A DNA stretch of 46,842 nt, from the NCBI RefSeq assembly GCF_001552255.1, contig NZ_BCQV01000037.1:1-46842 (forward strand), written 5' to 3'. Origin of the DNA: Alicyclobacillus shizuokensis NBRC 103103 (GTDB taxonomy: Bacteria > Bacillota > Bacilli > Alicyclobacillales > Alicyclobacillaceae). The position numbers and the translations under genes were made by a program. Below, in pieces: positions 3,635-23,956 of this stretch (the first letter of the stretch is position 1; each line of letters begins with the position of its first letter). The notes below the pieces were generated by a model, which saw only the letters and a list, made by a program, of their open reading frames with translations, was not told the DNA's origin and searched no databases.

Positions 3635-4315
3635 CTACCCACTCAAGCGCTCATAAAATTCCAGTTTCTCCTCATCCACTGCCCTCAACCCGTATGCCTC
3701 GCTGAACACCGAGAAACACGTTTCCGGCAGGCGATTGTAGCGCAGGGAACGCCAAACGGTGGCCAAGTCCCAGTACCGGTCACCCACGCCCAATTGTCCC
3801 AGGTCGATGAACCCCCGGATGGCCCCGTCCGAAACCAGGACGTTGGGCAGCGAATAATCGCCATGACAGACCACCAGATCCCCCTCTCCCCTGCCCTGGT
3901 CCTCCTGCAGTCGAAAAGGGCACGTGTCTACCGCCAATGCGTGAATCGCGCGCAGCCCCGTGGCCAGCAGCTTCGCCAGTTTCTCGGGGGTTTGCAGACA
4001 GGCCGGGTCCGAAGCCGGCAGGCCCGGGACCTCGGACATGAGCAGAAACTGGTAGGGCCCGCGAACGCCAAAGTACAAGACGCTTGGTACCGGAAGTTTT
4101 CCCTGCAGCCAAGCGAGCCGTCTTCGCTCCGGTTGGAGACTGCCGGTGGCGCCGTACTGCACCTTCAGGTAGACGGCCTGACCCGTTGGGGGCACCAGCC
4201 GGTATACCTGGCTTGATGAATGGCCCGTTCGATTTTCGCAGATCTGCCACTCCCGAACCTTCTGCGCCAAATCGTCCGGGAGGATATGCGCAAGGCTGGG
4301 CAACGTCCACCTCAC
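3635..4315 (-). CDS. APH(3')-like aminoglycoside phosphotransferase family protein, internally shortened
   Basis: This 226-residue kinase-like protein follows the APH(3') pattern: an N-lobe with VYLKVQ, the hinge SEVPGLP, the catalytic loop VVCHGDYSLPN and the metal-binding FIDLGQLGVGDRYWDLA. Family members are usually about 260-270 residues. Between TCPF and the HGD loop only some 16 residues remain where APH(3') enzymes have about 54, so a helical part of the substrate-binding lobe is missing. The C-terminus also stops early after FYERLSG. The kinase centre is present, but aminoglycoside activity is doubtful. The start is the GTG at 4315 just after AGGAGG, which is unusually close. Confidence 0.75.
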   Translation of the reverse strand: MRWTLPSLAHILPDDLAQKVREWQICENRTGHSSSQVYRLVPPTGQAVYLKVQYGATGSLQPERRRLAWLQGKLPVPSVLYFGVRGPYQFLLMSEVPGLPASDPACLQTPEKLAKLLATGLRAIHALAVDTCPFRLQEDQGRGEGDLVVCHGDYSLPNVLVSDGAIRGFIDLGQLGVGDRYWDLATVWRSLRYNRLPETCFSVFSEAYGLRAVDEEKLEFYERLSG

Positions 4316-18028: not shown

Positions 18029-18778
18029 TCAGGCATCAGGAAATAAATGATAAAAAGCTTCATACCGTTCGTCACGGGTTGTTGCTTGGTTCCCGCCGCG
18101 CTTGCGCTGCAGCGGGCGTGGTTTGCTGGCTGCCACTTGTTCCCGGCCCTGCTGGCGCTCTCGGTAGCTTTCTCGATAAGCCTCCAGGTCTTGGCGCGTA
18201 CGCACGCGGTGCCGCTGCCAATCGTACAAGATGCGGTCGATGTATTTGAAGCTGAACTTGTTGCCCAGAACGGCTTCGCGTAACGCCTCCATGACCAGCC
18301 ATTGCGGGTGTCCGTCCGTATCCAACCAGTGACGAATCTGTTCAAACTCGAACTCCGACAGGGGGCGGCCGAATTCCTGTTCGAACAGGCTGAACAAGTC
18401 TGTCGGGCCAACATGCGGATCGACCGCCGCTTCCTGACGGCCCCGCAACGCTTGCCACAACGGGCTGAGGTCATAATAATTGGTTCGTGTTCCATCTGAT
18501 TCTAGCCGTTCTCCGATGGACAACAGGTTTCGTTGGACGAGCCGAGCCACCGTGTCCCCGGCTTCCCGGGGGCTTAGGCCACAGCGCGCCGCCAGGTCCG
18601 CCGGCGTGAGGAAGCGTTCTTCCTGCGTCTGTACAGAGGCGATAACCTGCACCAGTACGGCAAACTCCGCCGGTGAGAGACTCAGGTCGCCGCAGTGCCG
18701 AATCAGATCGATGGGAACCGCCACAAACGGATGCGCCAAAAAATCGGCGTTATCGACAGAACGAACAGGAGGTTTCAT
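18029..18778 (-). CDS. dnaD: DnaD-family replication initiation/primosome protein
   Basis: This 249-residue protein has an N-terminal winged-helix oligomerisation domain (LSPAEFAVLVQVIASV, LTPADLAARCGLSPREAGDTV). A DDBH2 domain follows with the signature FSFKYIDRILYDW (YxxxIxxxW), then a basic tail that binds DNA. DnaD remodels DNA at origins and restart sites for loading of the replicative helicase. It follows asnS by 30 bp, as in B. subtilis. The ATG at 18778 is chosen because AAGAAGGA is 9 bases upstream; an ATG nine bases earlier overlaps that site. Confidence 0.9.
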   Translation of the reverse strand: MKPPVRSVDNADFLAHPFVAVPIDLIRHCGDLSLSPAEFAVLVQVIASVQTQEERFLTPADLAARCGLSPREAGDTVARLVQRNLLSIGERLESDGTRTNYYDLSPLWQALRGRQEAAVDPHVGPTDLFSLFEQEFGRPLSEFEFEQIRHWLDTDGHPQWLVMEALREAVLGNKFSFKYIDRILYDWQRHRVRTRQDLEAYRESYRERQQGREQVAASKPRPLQRKRGGNQATTRDERYEAFYHLFPDA

Positions 18779-18808
18779 GGCGGACATTCCTTCTTTGGCG
18801 GGACTAAC

Positions 18809-20098
18809 TTAAGGATACAAACGATACAACAGCCGTGGGAACGGAATGGCTTCCCGGACGTGCTCAAGTCCGCAGATCCAGGCAATCGTGCGTTCCAAAC
18901 CAAGGCCGAAGCCCGCATGCGGTACCGATCCGTAGCGCCGCAGATCGAGGTACCAACCGTAGCCGTCCAGCGGCAGATCATGCTCTTCAAACCGCTGCTG
19001 CAACAGGTCGTAGTCATGGATGCGTTCACTGCCGCCGATGATCTCCCCGTATCCTTCCGGCGCCAAGAGATCATCACAGAGCACCACTTCCGGCCGCTGC
19101 GGGTCAGGTTGCATGTAGAATGCCTTGATTTGCGTCGGGTAGCGCTCGATGAACACCGGACGGTCGTATTGCGAAGCCAATGCCGTCTCGTGTGGCGCTC
19201 CAAAGTCGTCCCCCCACTGGATGTCGTGACCGTGGTCCTGCAGCCAACGGATGGCCTCGTCGTACGTAAGCCGCGGAAACGGCGGACGTACCTGGGATAA
19301 TTTTGACGTATCCCGGCCAAGCACTTCCAGTTCGTGGGGACAATGCTCCAACACGTGCTGAACGATGTGGGAAACGAACTGTTCCTGCAACGCCAGGTTG
19401 TCTTCATGTTGATAGAACGCCATTTCGGGCTCCACCATCCAGAACTCAATGAGGTGGCGACGTGTCTTCGATTTCTCCGCCCGAAACGTCGGTCCCATCG
19501 AGTACACCTTGCCCAGCGCCATCGCCGCGGCCTCGCAGTACATCTGTCCGCTCTGTGTCAGATAGGCCTCCTCGTCAAAGTACTGGGTATGAAACAATTC
19601 CGTCGTATCTTCGCACGAAGAGGGGGTGAGAATGGGCGGATCCACACGCGTGAAACCTTGTTCATGCAGGAATTCAGAGATGGCCCGCTCAACTTCGGAG
19701 CGGATCTTCAGGATGGCGCGTTGTCGAGGCGTGCGAATCCATAGGTGACGGTGATCGAGGAGAAAGTCGACTCCGTGTTCCTTCAAGGTAATCGGGTAGT
19801 CGGCCGACTCCTGAACCAGAGTGACATCCGTGACGGACAGCTCGTACCCGGATTGGCTGCGCTCGTCTCGACGCACCACTCCACTCACGACAATGGAAGA
19901 CTCTTGGGTGAGACGTCTGCACCGCTCAAACAGCTCGTCTCCCACTTCGTTGCGTACAACCACGCACTGAATCAAGCCCGTGCCATCACGGACCTGGAGA
20001 AACAGGATTTTCCCACTGCTGCGTTTATTGTACAGCCACCCTTCCAGGGTGACCGTTTCTCCGACAAAGCTACCAATTTGGCCAATGCTAGTGCGCAT
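18809..20098 (-). CDS. asnS: Asparaginyl-tRNA synthetase
   Basis: This 429-residue class IIb synthetase charges tRNA-Asn. An OB-fold anticodon-binding domain ([19 protein letters not shown]) precedes the catalytic core: motif 2 around [22 protein letters not shown] and motif 3 as [15 protein letters not shown]. The ATG at 20098 gives [16 protein letters not shown], matching the start and length of B. subtilis AsnS. The GGAGG site is about 13 bases away, slightly long. It is followed directly by dnaD. No T-box leader is visible in the roughly 50 bp between promoter and start. Confidence 0.95.
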
Positions 20099-20147
20099 GC
20101 TTACCGAAGTCCCTCCGCCCCGCGTTTCCATCAGAAAGGATAACTCG

Positions 20148-20156
20148 ATTATAGCA
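20148..20156 (-). promoter_or_regulatory. Extended -10 promoter of asnS-dnaD
   Basis: On the minus strand TGCTATAAT combines a perfect -10 (20153-20148) with an upstream TG, an extended -10 element. The -35 region is poor (GATGGC), which the extension would offset. It lies about 50 bp before the asnS start. Confidence 0.6.
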
Positions 20157-20276
20157 GAAACCGTAGGTCGCCATCGAACGTCGTGTGTCGACACAAAACG
20201 ACCGTCTCCGACACCCCCGGAGCTCCCACGGCTCCATTGCGCACCAGAGAACGGTCATCGTTTCACGCAGGCAGCT

Positions 20277-20298
20277 AAAAACGGTCGACCAGCGACCG
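20277..20298 (-). terminator. Rho-independent terminator after the FtsH-like gene
   Basis: On the minus strand CGGTCG (20298-20293), a five-base loop and CGACCG (20287-20282) are followed by TTTTT (20281-20277). It starts 13 bp after the FtsH-like stop codon and separates that operon from asnS. Confidence 0.8.
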
Positions 20299-20310: not shown

Positions 20311-21849
20311 CTAGATACCAACGGTTGCGCCTTGGCCGAGTGGTTGGCGCATGGCAATCGATTCCTTGGGAGCTGGCAGCGCCTTTTGCACGCTACGGAG
20401 CCAACGCCGGAACTCGTCACCCCCGATGCTCTCGACCTCCACGATATGGAACGCAAAGTGCGCAATATCCGCCTTGAACGGTGCCAGCAGGTCCCTTGTG
20501 GCACGCTCCTGTTCCGCCAGGATATGCCGTACCTCCGTATCCAAGACGGACTCGGGGAGATGCTCCTCGTCCACGATGCCGATGCGCGAAAGCCCGCACT
20601 TGACCATGGTGCGAGCCAACTGGGAGGCTTGGACAAAGTCGTTTTGAGCCCCAGTGCTGCGGTCTCCGTAGTGGAGCTCTTCCGCCAGGCACCCCGCCAA
20701 CGCCACATTGATCTGTTGCAGCAGGTGTTCACGCGTATACAAATACCGGTCGTGCTCCGGAATCTGACGCACAAACCCAAGCGCGTTTCCGCGTGGAGCA
20801 ATGGTGATGTGAGAAACCGTCCCTGGGCTCATCAATTCACTGATGATGGCGTGCCCCAACTCGTGCACCGCGACTCGGCGCAATTCCTCGTGGGTAGGCT
20901 TGCGCCCCGTCTTTTCGCCCATCAGCACCTTGTCCACCGCATCGCGAAACATCTCCTGCGAGATTTCCGATTTCTCCTGGCGCAGCGCGATGATGGCCGC
21001 CTCGTTGACCAAGGCTTCCAACTGGGCCCCAGAGAAACCGAAAGTCTCTCGGGCAATGTGTTCCAGGTCCACATCGGGAGCCAACGGCTTACCTTTGGTC
21101 TGGATGTGGAGAATATGCAGCCGCCCGTCCTTGTCCGGCAGGTCCACCTGGATTTGCCGGTCAAACCGCCCTGGACGCAGGAGAGCCGGATCTAAGATGT
21201 CCGCCCGGTTTGTCGCGGCCATAACCAGAACCAACGGAGATTGGGTCGTCGACATTCCGTCCATCTCCGTCAGCAGCTGATTGAGCGTCTGGTCGTACTC
21301 CTGATGGCTGTACTGACCGCGTCTGCCCCCCAGCACGTCAATCTCGTCAATGAAGATAATCGCACTGTCCTTGTTTTCCTTTTTCGCCATGGTGCGGGCT
21401 CTGCGGAACAGTTCCCGCACACGCTGCGCGCCGACGCCCACATACATTTCGACAAACTCCGATCCAGCTGCCGACAAGAACACCGAGTCGGTATATGTGG
21501 CTGCCGCTTTGGCCATCAACGTCTTGCCGGTGCCCGGCGGTCCGGTCAACAAGATGCCCTTCAAGGGGCGAATGCCCAAGGACTGTATGCGGTCGCGGTA
21601 GCGCAAAAAATCCAGTGCCTCCATGAGCTCCCGTTTGGCGTGCTCTTGGCCGCCGACGTCTGCGAACGTGACCGGATGTTTGACCGGAGCCTCCCGTGAA
21701 CTGGCCAGCGGATGGCCGCGGCGTTCCAGGAGCATCCACATGAGTACTCCCAACCCAATCAAAAAGATCAGGGGCAGTACGTTGATTCGCAGATACAACA
21801 AGAACAGCGTCAGGGCGATCCCGATGCCTATCAGCCACTCCTTTATCAT
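20311..21849 (-). CDS. Short FtsH-like membrane AAA+ zinc metalloprotease lacking an extracytoplasmic domain
   Basis: This 512-residue protease has two N-terminal membrane segments (about 5-20 and 24-42) separated by only a few residues, where normal FtsH has a domain of about 70-80 residues. The AAA+ module has Walker A GPPGTGKT (103-110), pore loop YVGVGA (136-141, Tyr instead of the usual Phe), Walker B IIFIDEID (164-171) and the second region of homology ATNRADILDPALLRPGRFDR. The zinc site is HELGH (329-333) with Asp404 as third ligand, so proteolysis should be intact. Its ATG overlaps the stop of a membrane-anchored protein gene. It occupies the aspB position of B. subtilis. It may be a specialised, perhaps sporulation-linked, FtsH paralogue. 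Confidence 0.85.
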   Translation of the reverse strand: MIKEWLIGIGIALTLFLLYLRINVLPLIFLIGLGVLMWMLLERRGHPLASSREAPVKHPVTFADVGGQEHAKRELMEALDFLRYRDRIQSLGIRPLKGILLTGPPGTGKTLMAKAAATYTDSVFLSAAGSEFVEMYVGVGAQRVRELFRRARTMAKKENKDSAIIFIDEIDVLGGRRGQYSHQEYDQTLNQLLTEMDGMSTTQSPLVLVMAATNRADILDPALLRPGRFDRQIQVDLPDKDGRLHILHIQTKGKPLAPDVDLEHIARETFGFSGAQLEALVNEAAIIALRQEKSEISQEMFRDAVDKVLMGEKTGRKPTHEELRRVAVHELGHAIISELMSPGTVSHITIAPRGNALGFVRQIPEHDRYLYTREHLLQQINVALAGCLAEELHYGDRSTGAQNDFVQASQLARTMVKCGLSRIGIVDEEHLPESVLDTEVRHILAEQERATRDLLAPFKADIAHFAFHIVEVESIGGDEFRRWLRSVQKALPAPKESIAMRQPLGQGATVGI

Positions 21850-22367
21850 GACACCGCACCCCCTTGGCGCGAGGTATATTTAAAGACGTCATAGAGATGG
21901 TGCTTCCCATCATTCATTTGCACGTAGACGTACGTTTTATCCATTGTGATTGCAGCCTGAATCCCGTCTTCGGCCGCCTGCTTTTCCACGGCCGCAATCA
22001 TTTCTGTGTAGTTTCCCTTGGCCACGCCCTCGAGCAGAGCAGGCGTGAGCTTTTGATACTCCTTGACTAAACGCGTGTCGCGCGTATCCTCAATGGATAT
22101 CGAAACGCTGCTGCCCAGCGATTGCGAGACCTGGTCATAGATCTTTTGATAGGTGGTCTCCAAATCATCGACGTCACCCAGTTGGATGCGCACTGTGGTG
22201 GGCTGACCACTCTCCACCACGGCCGAACGAACACCGGAGATTCTGGACAGATGATTTTCCAACGGTCCAATCATGTTGAAGTGAAGGTATGCTTGCCAAC
22301 CGCCGAAGAGGATGGCGAGCGTGATGACGGCGATGAAGATGATTGGCACGAGGCGTACTCGCGACAC
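21846..22367 (-). CDS. Single-pass membrane protein of unknown function, coupled to the FtsH-like protease
   Basis: This product of about 173 residues is not recognised. It has one N-terminal membrane helix (PIIFIAVITLAILFGGWQAYL). The remaining 140 residues are soluble and probably extracytoplasmic: one α/β unit (SGVRSAVVESGQPTTVRIQL) followed by a helix-rich part (DLETTYQKIYDQVSQSL) and a strand pair at the end (AITMDKTYVYVQMNDGK). The start is ambiguous; the GTG at 22367 has AAAGGGG 8 bases upstream, and a GTG at 22391 is also in frame. Its last four bases overlap the FtsH-like start, which points to a stable partner, adaptor or substrate. Confidence 0.7.
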   Translation of the reverse strand: MSRVRLVPIIFIAVITLAILFGGWQAYLHFNMIGPLENHLSRISGVRSAVVESGQPTTVRIQLGDVDDLETTYQKIYDQVSQSLGSSVSISIEDTRDTRLVKEYQKLTPALLEGVAKGNYTEMIAAVEKQAAEDGIQAAITMDKTYVYVQMNDGKHHLYDVFKYTSRQGGAVS

Positions 22368-22461
22368 CAACCTCGCCCCTTTCCGAACCACCAGCCAGGC
22401 CTACCCGCAGGTTGGAATCGCACCAGGCTGGTACATGCTGAGTATACCACGCAACACCACG

Positions 22462-22974
22462 TTATGTTGACAACATATATTTCCACAAAAGTTTTCCATT
22501 TACAGCATCATAAAAAATATACTCTGAGCGTCCATTTTTCCGCTGCTTTCCATAGACTTCCCAAACCACGTGACGGCTAGCTGGCAGCGTCTTCGCCAAG
22601 GAGGATGGAACATACGCAGGCTCCGCGTCAATCGGTGTGACGCCTGCGCGCTCCGCCAACTGTTCGACCCTGCTCTTGACCAGCACTTGCGAAGCCGGGA
22701 CGGCGTAGGCGTGGCGAGGATTGTCCGTCACAAACGTGTACCACGACCGTCCGAACATGTCCCGCCCGTAAAACACTTCCTGAACGCCTGCGCCTGTGGA
22801 AAGTGCATGTCCTTCGATGCGCTCCAGGGGAGAGTGATTCAAGGCGTATTGGGCGGAAGACTGTTCGACATCCCACTCGTCGCGGACTTGGTTCCACAGG
22901 GTCATGCCTATGCTCACAAGTGCCATCAAGACGATGATGGTGCCCGTAATCACCCATATCTTACTCGTGTTCAT
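22462..22974 (-). CDS. ypmB: YpmB/TseB-like membrane-anchored cell-wall protein
   Basis: This 170-residue protein has an N-terminal membrane helix (about 6-27) followed by two similar PepSY-like α/β units (VQEVFYGRDMFGRSWYTFVTD, then VVWEVYGKQRKNGRSEYIFYD). That is the fold of B. subtilis YpmB, renamed TseB for its link with penicillin-binding protein activity and tetracycline sensitivity. Its place upstream of asnS-dnaD matches B. subtilis. It starts 4 bp after the surE-type gene ends, so the two are co-transcribed. Confidence 0.8.
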   Translation of the reverse strand: MNTSKIWVITGTIIVLMALVSIGMTLWNQVRDEWDVEQSSAQYALNHSPLERIEGHALSTGAGVQEVFYGRDMFGRSWYTFVTDNPRHAYAVPASQVLVKSRVEQLAERAGVTPIDAEPAYVPSSLAKTLPASRHVVWEVYGKQRKNGRSEYIFYDAVNGKLLWKYMLST

Positions 22975-22978
22975 CTGT

Positions 22979-23956
22979 TCACGCCCGATACAACGTTAAG
23001 ATCATTTTATCCGGTTGTTGTTTGTCTAACGACAGGCCAAAGATGACATCCTTATTCTTCAGGTTGCGGTTCAAGAAATCGACTAACTGATACAAATCGT
23101 CGGTTCGTGTACAGGTGTGCGTACCGATGATGATGCGCTCGTGCGCCCCGGCCGCCCGTGCGCCCACAGGCGGGGTGCTGGCACTTGAATCGGCCGCATC
23201 ACCTGCCAAATACAACTTTAGACTATCAATGATCTGGTGATTTGTAAAATGGTAGCGCAGCGGTGTCACGCTCACCTCACCACGCCGTACGGCCGCGACA
23301 TCGGTCTCTTCTCCCCTCGGCTCCTGCAACTCCTCCCCCATGTAGCGGTACCCTGTCCGCTCTCCGTTCTTATCCGCAACCACAAAGGAATCGCGAAAAC
23401 CGCGGACACCCAGCTGAGTAACGGCAACTCTGGTTTCCGCATGGACGGTCGATGGGAGATTGATGCTTAAAAATGTATCCTCAGGCCATGGAAACTCATC
23501 CAAATCTCGAAGGATCTGCAGCGCCTTTGCGGCCGCCTGCGCGAACGGAAACGGGGGTCCGCCTAAGGACAGCGCTACGGCCGGTATGCCTTGTACGGCC
23601 GCTTCTCCCGCGGCCGCGATTGTACCCGAATAGAGGACATCGGTGGCGAGATTGGGCCCCTGGTTAATCCCTGAGACCACCAGGTCGAATGGACTTTGCG
23701 TGGCCAACTCGGCTATCGCCCATTTCACACAGTCCACCGGTGTGCCGGCGACCGCGTATGCCGCTTGAACTCCGGGGATAGACAGGCTTCTCCGCTGTGT
23801 CCAGATGGTTGCGTGCAGAGACATGGCGTGGCTGGATGCCGACCGTTGACCATCGGGTGCCACCACGGTGACCTCTCCCAGGTCAGCCAACGCCTGTGCG
23901 AGCGCACGAATTCCCGGCGCTTGGATGCCATCGTCGTTGCAGACCAGTATGCGCAT
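22979..23956 (-). CDS. surE: SurE 5'-nucleotidase fused to a YpmA-like C-terminal domain
   Basis: This 325-residue protein begins with a SurE phosphatase domain (about 1-250): metal site NDDG (7-10), SASSHAMSLH, the loop SGINQGPNLATDVLYSGTIAAAGEA, and SVTPLRYHFTNH near its end. It removes phosphate from nucleoside 5'-monophosphates. SurE proteins are normally about 250-265 residues. Here an Ala/Ser/Pro linker (about 252-272) leads to 54 more residues containing DLYQLVDFLNRNLKNKDVIF and PDKMILTLYRA, which resemble the stand-alone YpmA (DUF4264) protein. No ribosome site or ATG lies at the junction. In B. subtilis ypmA sits exactly here, before ypmB. The ATG follows AGGAGAGGAG. Confidence 0.82.
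   Translation of the reverse strand: MRILVCNDDGIQAPGIRALAQALADLGEVTVVAPDGQRSASSHAMSLHATIWTQRRSLSIPGVQAAYAVAGTPVDCVKWAIAELATQSPFDLVVSGINQGPNLATDVLYSGTIAAAGEAAVQGIPAVALSLGGPPFPFAQAAAKALQILRDLDEFPWPEDTFLSINLPSTVHAETRVAVTQLGVRGFRDSFVVADKNGERTGYRYMGEELQEPRGEETDVAAVRRGEVSVTPLRYHFTNHQIIDSLKLYLAGDAADSSASTPPVGARAAGAHERIIIGTHTCTRTDDLYQLVDFLNRNLKNKDVIFGLSLDKQQPDKMILTLYRA

Follow-up and report, generated by a model that had tools for sequence, protein, structure and literature searches.

FtsH is encoded by a single gene in most bacteria, according to a recent review (PMC9020784), and the closest report to the present subject that we found in the open-access literature is a survey of acidophiles, in which 2-3 ftsH copies are given for Bacillota and read as gene redundancy (PMC10490939). 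Here, we describe a gene pair on the minus strand of contig NZ_BCQV01000037.1 of Alicyclobacillus shizuokensis NBRC 103103, the whole 46,842-nucleotide stretch of which was analysed and is referred to as the window. The pair consists of a short FtsH-like AAA+/M41 membrane protease (20311..21849) and, directly upstream, a separate protein with a single predicted membrane pass and a predicted outer domain, the partner (21846..22367). With a probability of about two in three, the two products form a two-subunit membrane AAA+ metalloprotease, the outer or regulatory part of which is supplied as a separate protein; the pair most likely represents a subfamily within the FtsH/M41 proteases that occurs in Bacillota.

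The protease open reading frame (ORF) starts with ATG and encodes 512 residues, in which Pfam finds the AAA, AAA_lid_3 and Peptidase_M41 domains. The ATPase domain covers residues 99-236 (21142..21555, minus strand; PF00004, 136.2 bits) and the peptidase domain residues 319-481 (20407..20895, minus strand; PF01434, 116.2 bits, cut-off 29.9), with the HELGH motif at 329-333 (H329, E330 and H333) and D404 as the distal aspartate. In a set of 209 pairs drawn from 208 genomes (G524 is in it twice), Walker A, Walker B, the RPGR arginines, HExxH and D404 are found at 98-100% weighted frequency and the pore tyrosine 136 at 97%; the pore loop reads MYVGVG in the short protease versus MFVGVG in the canonical FtsH of the same genome. 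According to the AlphaFold2 model (predicted local distance difference test, pLDDT, 87.0; predicted template modelling score, pTM, 0.74), two membrane helices at residues 2-19 (21793..21846, minus strand) and 25-43 (21721..21777, minus strand) are connected by a turn of 5 residues, and FtsH_ext (PF06480) is not among the best 25 of 34 Pfam rows. Both statements of the initial annotation on the protease, namely that all ATPase and zinc-protease residues are retained and that only a few residues separate the helices, with no extracytoplasmic domain, are therefore borne out. The hairpin positions G8, P26, E4 and G21-like are conserved at 88-98% among the 209 pairs, the window protein having R at 21, and G8 and P26 are invariant across the 58 members of the protease profile (A6); a simple hydropathy scan of the relatives marks both membrane segments in many of them and one in the remainder. 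By its sequence, the protease is an intact ATPase and zinc-protease motor on a minimal two-helix hairpin devoid of an extracytoplasmic domain.

The partner and protease ORFs share the ATGA at 21846-21849, the partner being the upstream gene. A longer version of the partner ORF begins at GTG 22391 (21846..22391, minus strand, 181 residues); the start is better placed at GTG 22367, which gives 173 residues, because it agrees with the conserved start of the family (consensus MSRIRLVP), and a purine-rich stretch lies in front of it, so that the end coordinate previously given for a 173-residue partner is probably right. The AlphaFold2 model is confident (pLDDT 93.0, pTM 0.81) and places the membrane helix core at residues 14-36 of the 181-residue numbering (22284..22352, minus strand), inside one predicted helix spanning 11-49, and the outer domain at residues 50-172 (21876..22244, minus strand), where the long helix is followed by a beta-beta-alpha-beta unit and then by two helices and three strands. 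The earlier description of an upstream, ATGA-overlapping, single-pass protein with a soluble outside domain is matched by the ORFs as regards the overlap, and by the model as regards the domain. Conservation amounts to 1.89 bits per column in the membrane segment and, in the outer domain, to 1.32 in the first half and 1.72 in the second; the higher value of the membrane segment relative to the first outer half would fit contacts within the membrane, although it is no proof of them. At the other end of the protein, the conserved Gln-Gly-Gly of the C-terminus is specified by CAAGGGGGT (window 21850-21869). These bases probably also serve the protease gene as ribosome-binding site, and for this reason the conservation at that end may be DNA-level.

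In the order, the partner is found in 56 of 59 genomes and so is the protease, which in one of them (G045) is broken up by contig ends; G034, G044 and G049, which lack both genes, are 60-73% complete. In the class, the partner profile A1 matches 195 of 398 genomes; 156 of these matches lie outside the order and, in all 40 that were fetched, the protease is the next gene on the same strand. Across the phylum, which is inferred to be Bacillota from the named loci, the partner profile A3 is matched in 235 of 348 genomes, and 39 of 40 fetched partner loci adjoin the protease. The short protease (profile A6) is present in 120 of 149 phylum genomes, its copies scoring 583-819 bits versus at most 496 for other M41 copies, among the matches listed, which reach down to 452 bits; a single copy truncated where its contig stops (G493) scores 472 bits. 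Both genes are found in 113 of these 149 genomes, the protease only in 7, the partner only in none, and neither in 29. Furthermore, in all 7 protease-only genomes the protease is directly preceded by an ORF of 156-171 residues, which has a membrane segment at its N-terminus and is recognised by the partner profile, with E from 3e-11 to 1.3e-3 when a small set of ORFs is searched; the weak cases are L267 (13.3 bits), L268 (16.3) and L272 (18.9). In L267 and L268, the partner-like ORF is extremely divergent, yet the protease is clearly of the short form. According to the initial annotation, the pair would be refuted if homologues of the protease turned up alone as frequently as beside the partner; the counts are the reverse of this, and the co-occurrence, suggested for Alicyclobacillaceae, holds over a far wider group than that family.

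When the 119 distinct phylum loci (L226-L285 and L300-L358) are considered, a set that takes in the 40 fetched partner loci and a further batch of 20 and leaves out L359, a second copy of the G524 locus L255, the partner is the nearest recognised upstream gene of the protease in 115. The criterion here is that none of the genes on the query list lies between, a rule by which L258 also counts as adjacent. The other four are L267, L268, L272 and L277, in the last of which the protease is cut off by a contig end. Among the matches listed for named genomes (80 loci), each of the 18 short-form loci has the partner upstream: three are from Alicyclobacillus, nine from Paenibacillus, three from Cohnella, one from a genome labelled Anoxybacillus sediminis, and two from Bacillota metagenome-assembled genomes (MAGs). 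In 130 pairs measured, with start sites picked by script, the frames overlap in 110, are 0-60 bases apart in 18 and further apart in 2 (117 and 3416 bases); spacers of 133-423 bases are found in L311, L338 and L352. In the genomes sampled, co-occurrence and linkage are thus near-perfect, mostly with overlapping frames, and the association, being kept across the phylum, is far above what chance would give. A separate observation concerns L345 (4048-6096, genome G646), where the two ORFs of the pair share a frame of 683 residues that is split by a single TAG; this long frame is two ORFs rather than a gene fusion, and no search aimed at fusions was made.

Some lineages seem to lack the pair. Among 27 genomes behind loci, the short form is found in 4, all of Bacillota, and not in the other 23, among which are loci with the titles Sporosarcina, Enterococcus, Pisciglobus, Oscillospiraceae and Eubacterium; B. 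subtilis, judging from its gene order, presumably also lacks the pair. A sample reached through an Oscillospiraceae locus belongs to the same phylum as the 149 genomes and largely repeats them, and it is not counted as independent. No short form was found in the phylum of a Chloroflexi MAG (0 of 121 genomes at E 1e-145, a sample without positive control), in that of a Streptomyces (66 of 149 match at E 1e-130, the best with 462 bits, in frames of at least 548 residues) or in that of a Doudnabacteria MAG (60 of 116 match at 1e-130, the best with 476 bits, in frames of at least 520 residues), in searches that would miss a more divergent pair.

If the two proteins are subunits of one enzyme, the short protease would assemble as the usual FtsH hexamer and the partner would associate with it through the membrane helices, so that its outer domain would be placed where FtsH_ext would otherwise sit. 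The partner might even form a ring over the hexamer, a guess prompted by the resemblance of the first half of its outer domain to ring-building motifs, which is however a common fold. The outer domain would then select membrane or envelope proteins, or gate their access, and the ATPase would pull those selected into the cytosolic protease chamber, the pair acting beside the housekeeping FtsH and not in its place. The initial annotation had advanced such a two-component membrane protease, and this is supported in part: the strict linkage and the existence of a second, full-length FtsH speak for it, whereas the partner shows no similarity to a small set of FtsH_ext sequences in a profile comparison and is a larger protein with a membrane helix of its own.

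Several results weigh against this two-subunit reading. Linkage of this kind also fits a regulator or an inhibitor. Of the 149 phylum genomes, 29 live without the pair. In L258 (4842-10282) the two genes, on the same strand, are 3.4 kb apart, the largest gap measured, and this gap, along with the few spacers of more than 100 bases, indicates that translational coupling is not obligatory. No profile similarity between the partner and FtsH_ext was detected by hhalign (probability 2%, with 7 rows on the FtsH side). The partner outer domain has no Foldseek match below E 0.001 and reaches a best VIA-align Z of 8.1, which is the level of common folds; FtsH outer domains are not among its 50 VIA-align rows, which is no evidence of absence, and neither a ring-building nor an FtsH_ext identity was assigned to the partner from the structure search. 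Finally, mean-field direct coupling analysis of the 209 pairs (effective number of sequences 121 at 70% identity) gave no clear enrichment of pairs between the partner and the hairpin, which account for 4 of the top 20 inter-protein pairs versus 3.8 expected, 25 versus 18.8 of the top 100, and 53 versus 37.5 of the top 200, that is, a mild excess lower in the list. The top inter-protein pair joins partner 82 to protease 21, but many of the high-scoring pairs join residues that are unable to meet, and the intra-protein pairs are noisy too, so that covariation is treated as uninformative on contact between the two proteins.

The alternative that survives best, albeit as an unlikely one, denies the partner a structural role: it would instead be devoted to regulating or inhibiting the protease, or be an obligatory substrate of it. 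Synthesised together with the protease, the partner would bind it and hold it inactive, or tune it, until its outer domain senses a signal from outside, on the model of HflKC, which acts on E. coli FtsH as a regulator. The strict linkage with mostly overlapping frames is as expected from such a protein, and so is its much faster divergence (median identity of 24% for the partner versus 53% for the protease in the 209 pairs), as sensor or substrate-binding proteins often diverge fast. However, a linkage that is phylum-wide, with no partner-only genome among 149, seems to us tighter than is usual for modulators, and the short protease is devoid of the outer domain that FtsH modulators probably contact.

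It could also be argued that the two genes are functionally independent and kept together only by a slowly changing neighbourhood. In the window, the genes run on the same strand in the order SurE, TseB-position gene, pair, AsnS and DnaD, with no aspB between. Upstream of the partner are an ORF of 170 residues in the TseB/YpmB position (22462..22974, minus strand), without a Pfam match, and SurE (22979-23956, minus strand), which carries a C-terminal DUF4264 domain (PF14084, 67.5 bits), so that two families are fused in this protein. In L102, the gene at the TseB/YpmB position (3725-4258) matches PF17881 (TseB), and blastp gave no match between it and the window gene. Downstream are an asparaginyl-type tRNA synthetase (class II D/K/N; 18809..20194, minus strand) and DnaD (18029..18787, minus strand), both assigned by Pfam. 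In B. subtilis the order is ypmB-aspB-asnS-dnaD, and the initial annotation had placed the pair where aspB lies there. The terminator placed after the protease is a less certain element: a stem-loop with a TTTTT tail is present just past the stop codon (20282..20298, minus strand), whereas a scan for terminator-like sites gave 7 versus 5.9 +/- 2.5 in shuffled sequences, so that the match by itself is not above chance.

Elsewhere the surroundings are conserved as well, which speaks for independence of the two genes: on the same strand, the 119 phylum loci, all outside the class, contain RimO in 89, CinA in 81, PgsA in 66, RecA in 64, a RodZ-type gene in 61, a calcineurin-type phosphoesterase in 41 and an FtsK-type gene in 34. 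These counts are lower bounds, as they derive from one or two BLAST queries per gene and from loci of limited length; the PgsA and phosphoesterase (PF00149) labels were confirmed by Pfam, and RimO, RodZ, FtsK, CinA and RecA were named by eye. However, the neighbourhoods differ. AsnS or DnaD is found downstream, within the fetched stretch, in 22 of the 40 Bacilli loci outside the order, while outside Bacilli the pair is often inside a rimO-pgsA-pair-cinA-recA cluster (e.g. L227, L255, L241 and L267), and some such loci also contain a LigT-type or calcineurin-type phosphoesterase. The pair has therefore stayed joined through at least one change of neighbourhood and, since the presence and absence of the two genes agree genome-wide too, independence is improbable.

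That the partner is the split-off extracytoplasmic domain of an ancestral FtsH, and the pair an FtsH in two pieces, would account for a protease without FtsH_ext next to a protein supplying a predicted outer domain. In the hhalign comparison with canonical FtsH N-termini, however, the aligned part is 21 columns and comprises the membrane helix only, and the partner has a membrane helix of its own; with 7 rows only on the FtsH side, the low probability leaves room for remote homology, and we regard this origin as very improbable. No Pfam or NCBIfam family scores above cut-off in the window partner; at E up to 1, Pfam gives for it Toxofilin-like and RelB_leu_zip alone, neither of which reaches its cut-off. 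Its 58 relatives give scattered matches with at most 3 members each (in the best 25 of 38 Pfam and 25 of 48 NCBIfam families). The HMA and copper-chaperone models match 3 of the 58 (E about 0.001), in agreement with the way the first half is folded, and the lowest E, 1.1e-6, is that of a single member against an arginyl-tRNA ligase model; HMA, copper chaperone and arginyl-tRNA ligase were all rejected as the partner family. When compared with the sequences of solved structures, the partner profiles retrieved no relative, the best E being 0.095 for A1 and, for A7, 0.0028, to a designed protein.

That the short protease is the ordinary housekeeping FtsH with a degenerate N-terminus, as its intact catalytic residues would permit, is hardly credible, being refuted by a canonical FtsH of 626 residues (from the first ATG) in the same genome and by a tree in which the short form is a separate branch across the phylum. 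The source genome contains two PF01434 genes, the short protease and this canonical FtsH, the N-terminus of which matches FtsH_ext with 42.8 bits (cut-off 25.5) and serves as same-genome positive control for the FtsH_ext search; the full-length ftsH that the initial annotation wished to see elsewhere in the genome is thus there. In 57 of the 59 genomes of the order, the search also gives a row that looks canonical and is 45-52% identical to the short protease, the two without it (G031 and G034) being 72% and 62% complete. In a quick IQ-TREE analysis of 101 rows over the AAA plus protease region, with the root not placed and long branches flagged (among the short forms L266, L254, L283 and L282), 44 short and 57 canonical proteases are split by one branch with a Shimodaira-Hasegawa-like approximate likelihood ratio (SH-aLRT) of 100. 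The window protease scores 474.3 bits against TIGR01241, under its curated cut-off of 600. On sequence criteria, it is a distinct subfamily of the M41 AAA proteases and not FtsH sensu stricto. In L285, a third M41 protease of 480 residues lies about 3 kb beyond the pair (G458:C47:18607-20010, minus strand, opposite to the pair); it apparently has a single N-terminal membrane segment and is the top non-short copy among the matches listed (495.6 bits).

Of 149 genomes drawn evenly from the phylum, 120, or about four-fifths, carry a second, structurally different form of FtsH that is tied to a partner. Among the titles and abstract starts listed in searches of the open-access literature, none describes the pair, subscription papers and preprints being outside the scope of that search; that the two genes stayed together across such a large bacterial group suggests an undescribed two-part protease. 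A. tengchongensis CGMCC1504, a strain of the acidophile survey (PMC10490939), carries the pair (L138), so that the 2-3 ftsH copies counted there probably include one that is an enzyme in its own right. Should the partner prove to be a subunit, the pair would show what the FtsH outer domain does, as nature has here separated the two parts, and genera such as Paenibacillus and Alicyclobacillus would possess an extra route of membrane-protein quality control. A broader proposal can be offered tentatively, and it may well prove wrong: most Bacillota would have had in their ancestry a second membrane protease system, combining an ectodomain-less FtsH with an outer ring made by a separate protein, so that the outer recognition module evolves fast and is exchangeable, perhaps in the service of phospholipid or envelope homeostasis. 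The latter role is suggested by the location next to pgsA or a TseB-type gene, and the system would have escaped recognition because the well-studied lineages seem to lack it.

Compared with known systems, the outer domain of the partner aligns in its first half to the ring-building motifs, of alpha-beta-beta-alpha-beta fold, of PrgK (4oyc_A: Z 8.0, root-mean-square deviation, rmsd, 2.6, 78 aligned residues) and EscJ (1yj7_C: Z 7.0, rmsd 2.7, 74 aligned), and FliF rows give Z 6.9-7.1 over a longer aligned span; these values are tied with those of zinc-transporter cytosolic domains and other common folds, and no sequence match accompanies them. The second half aligns to the C-terminal part of pantothenate synthetases (3mue_B: Z 7.9, rmsd 2.2, 74 aligned). 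The HflKC-FtsH and Psb29-FtsH complexes are work-alikes at most, in that a separate protein is associated with an FtsH-type protease; unlike HflKC, the window partner has no SPFH/Band 7 domain among its Pfam rows at E up to 1, nor was one found in its 58 relatives among the best 25 of 38 weak families, and its gene lies beside that of the protease. Motor and protease fold are shared with the mitochondrial i-AAA protease YME1 (6az0: Z 30.3, rmsd 3.7, 419 aligned) and m-AAA protease AFG3L2 (6nyy_E: Z 28.9, rmsd 3.9, 423 aligned), from which the short protease differs in that m-AAA retains a domain in the intermembrane space and i-AAA crosses the membrane with one helix; we know of no partner of such a kind for either. 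The closest likeness is to bacterial FtsH, with which the short protease has in common the AAA+ and M41 domains, HExxH, D404 and two N-terminal membrane helices, and apo-FtsH is its top VIA-align row (3kds_F: Z 33.7, rmsd 3.5, 413 aligned, 47% identity). It departs from bacterial FtsH in having no FtsH_ext between the helices, in its TIGR01241 score (474 versus 600 bits) and in its own branch of the tree, and from the canonical copy of its own genome in having a pore tyrosine in place of phenylalanine and in adjoining the gene of its partner.

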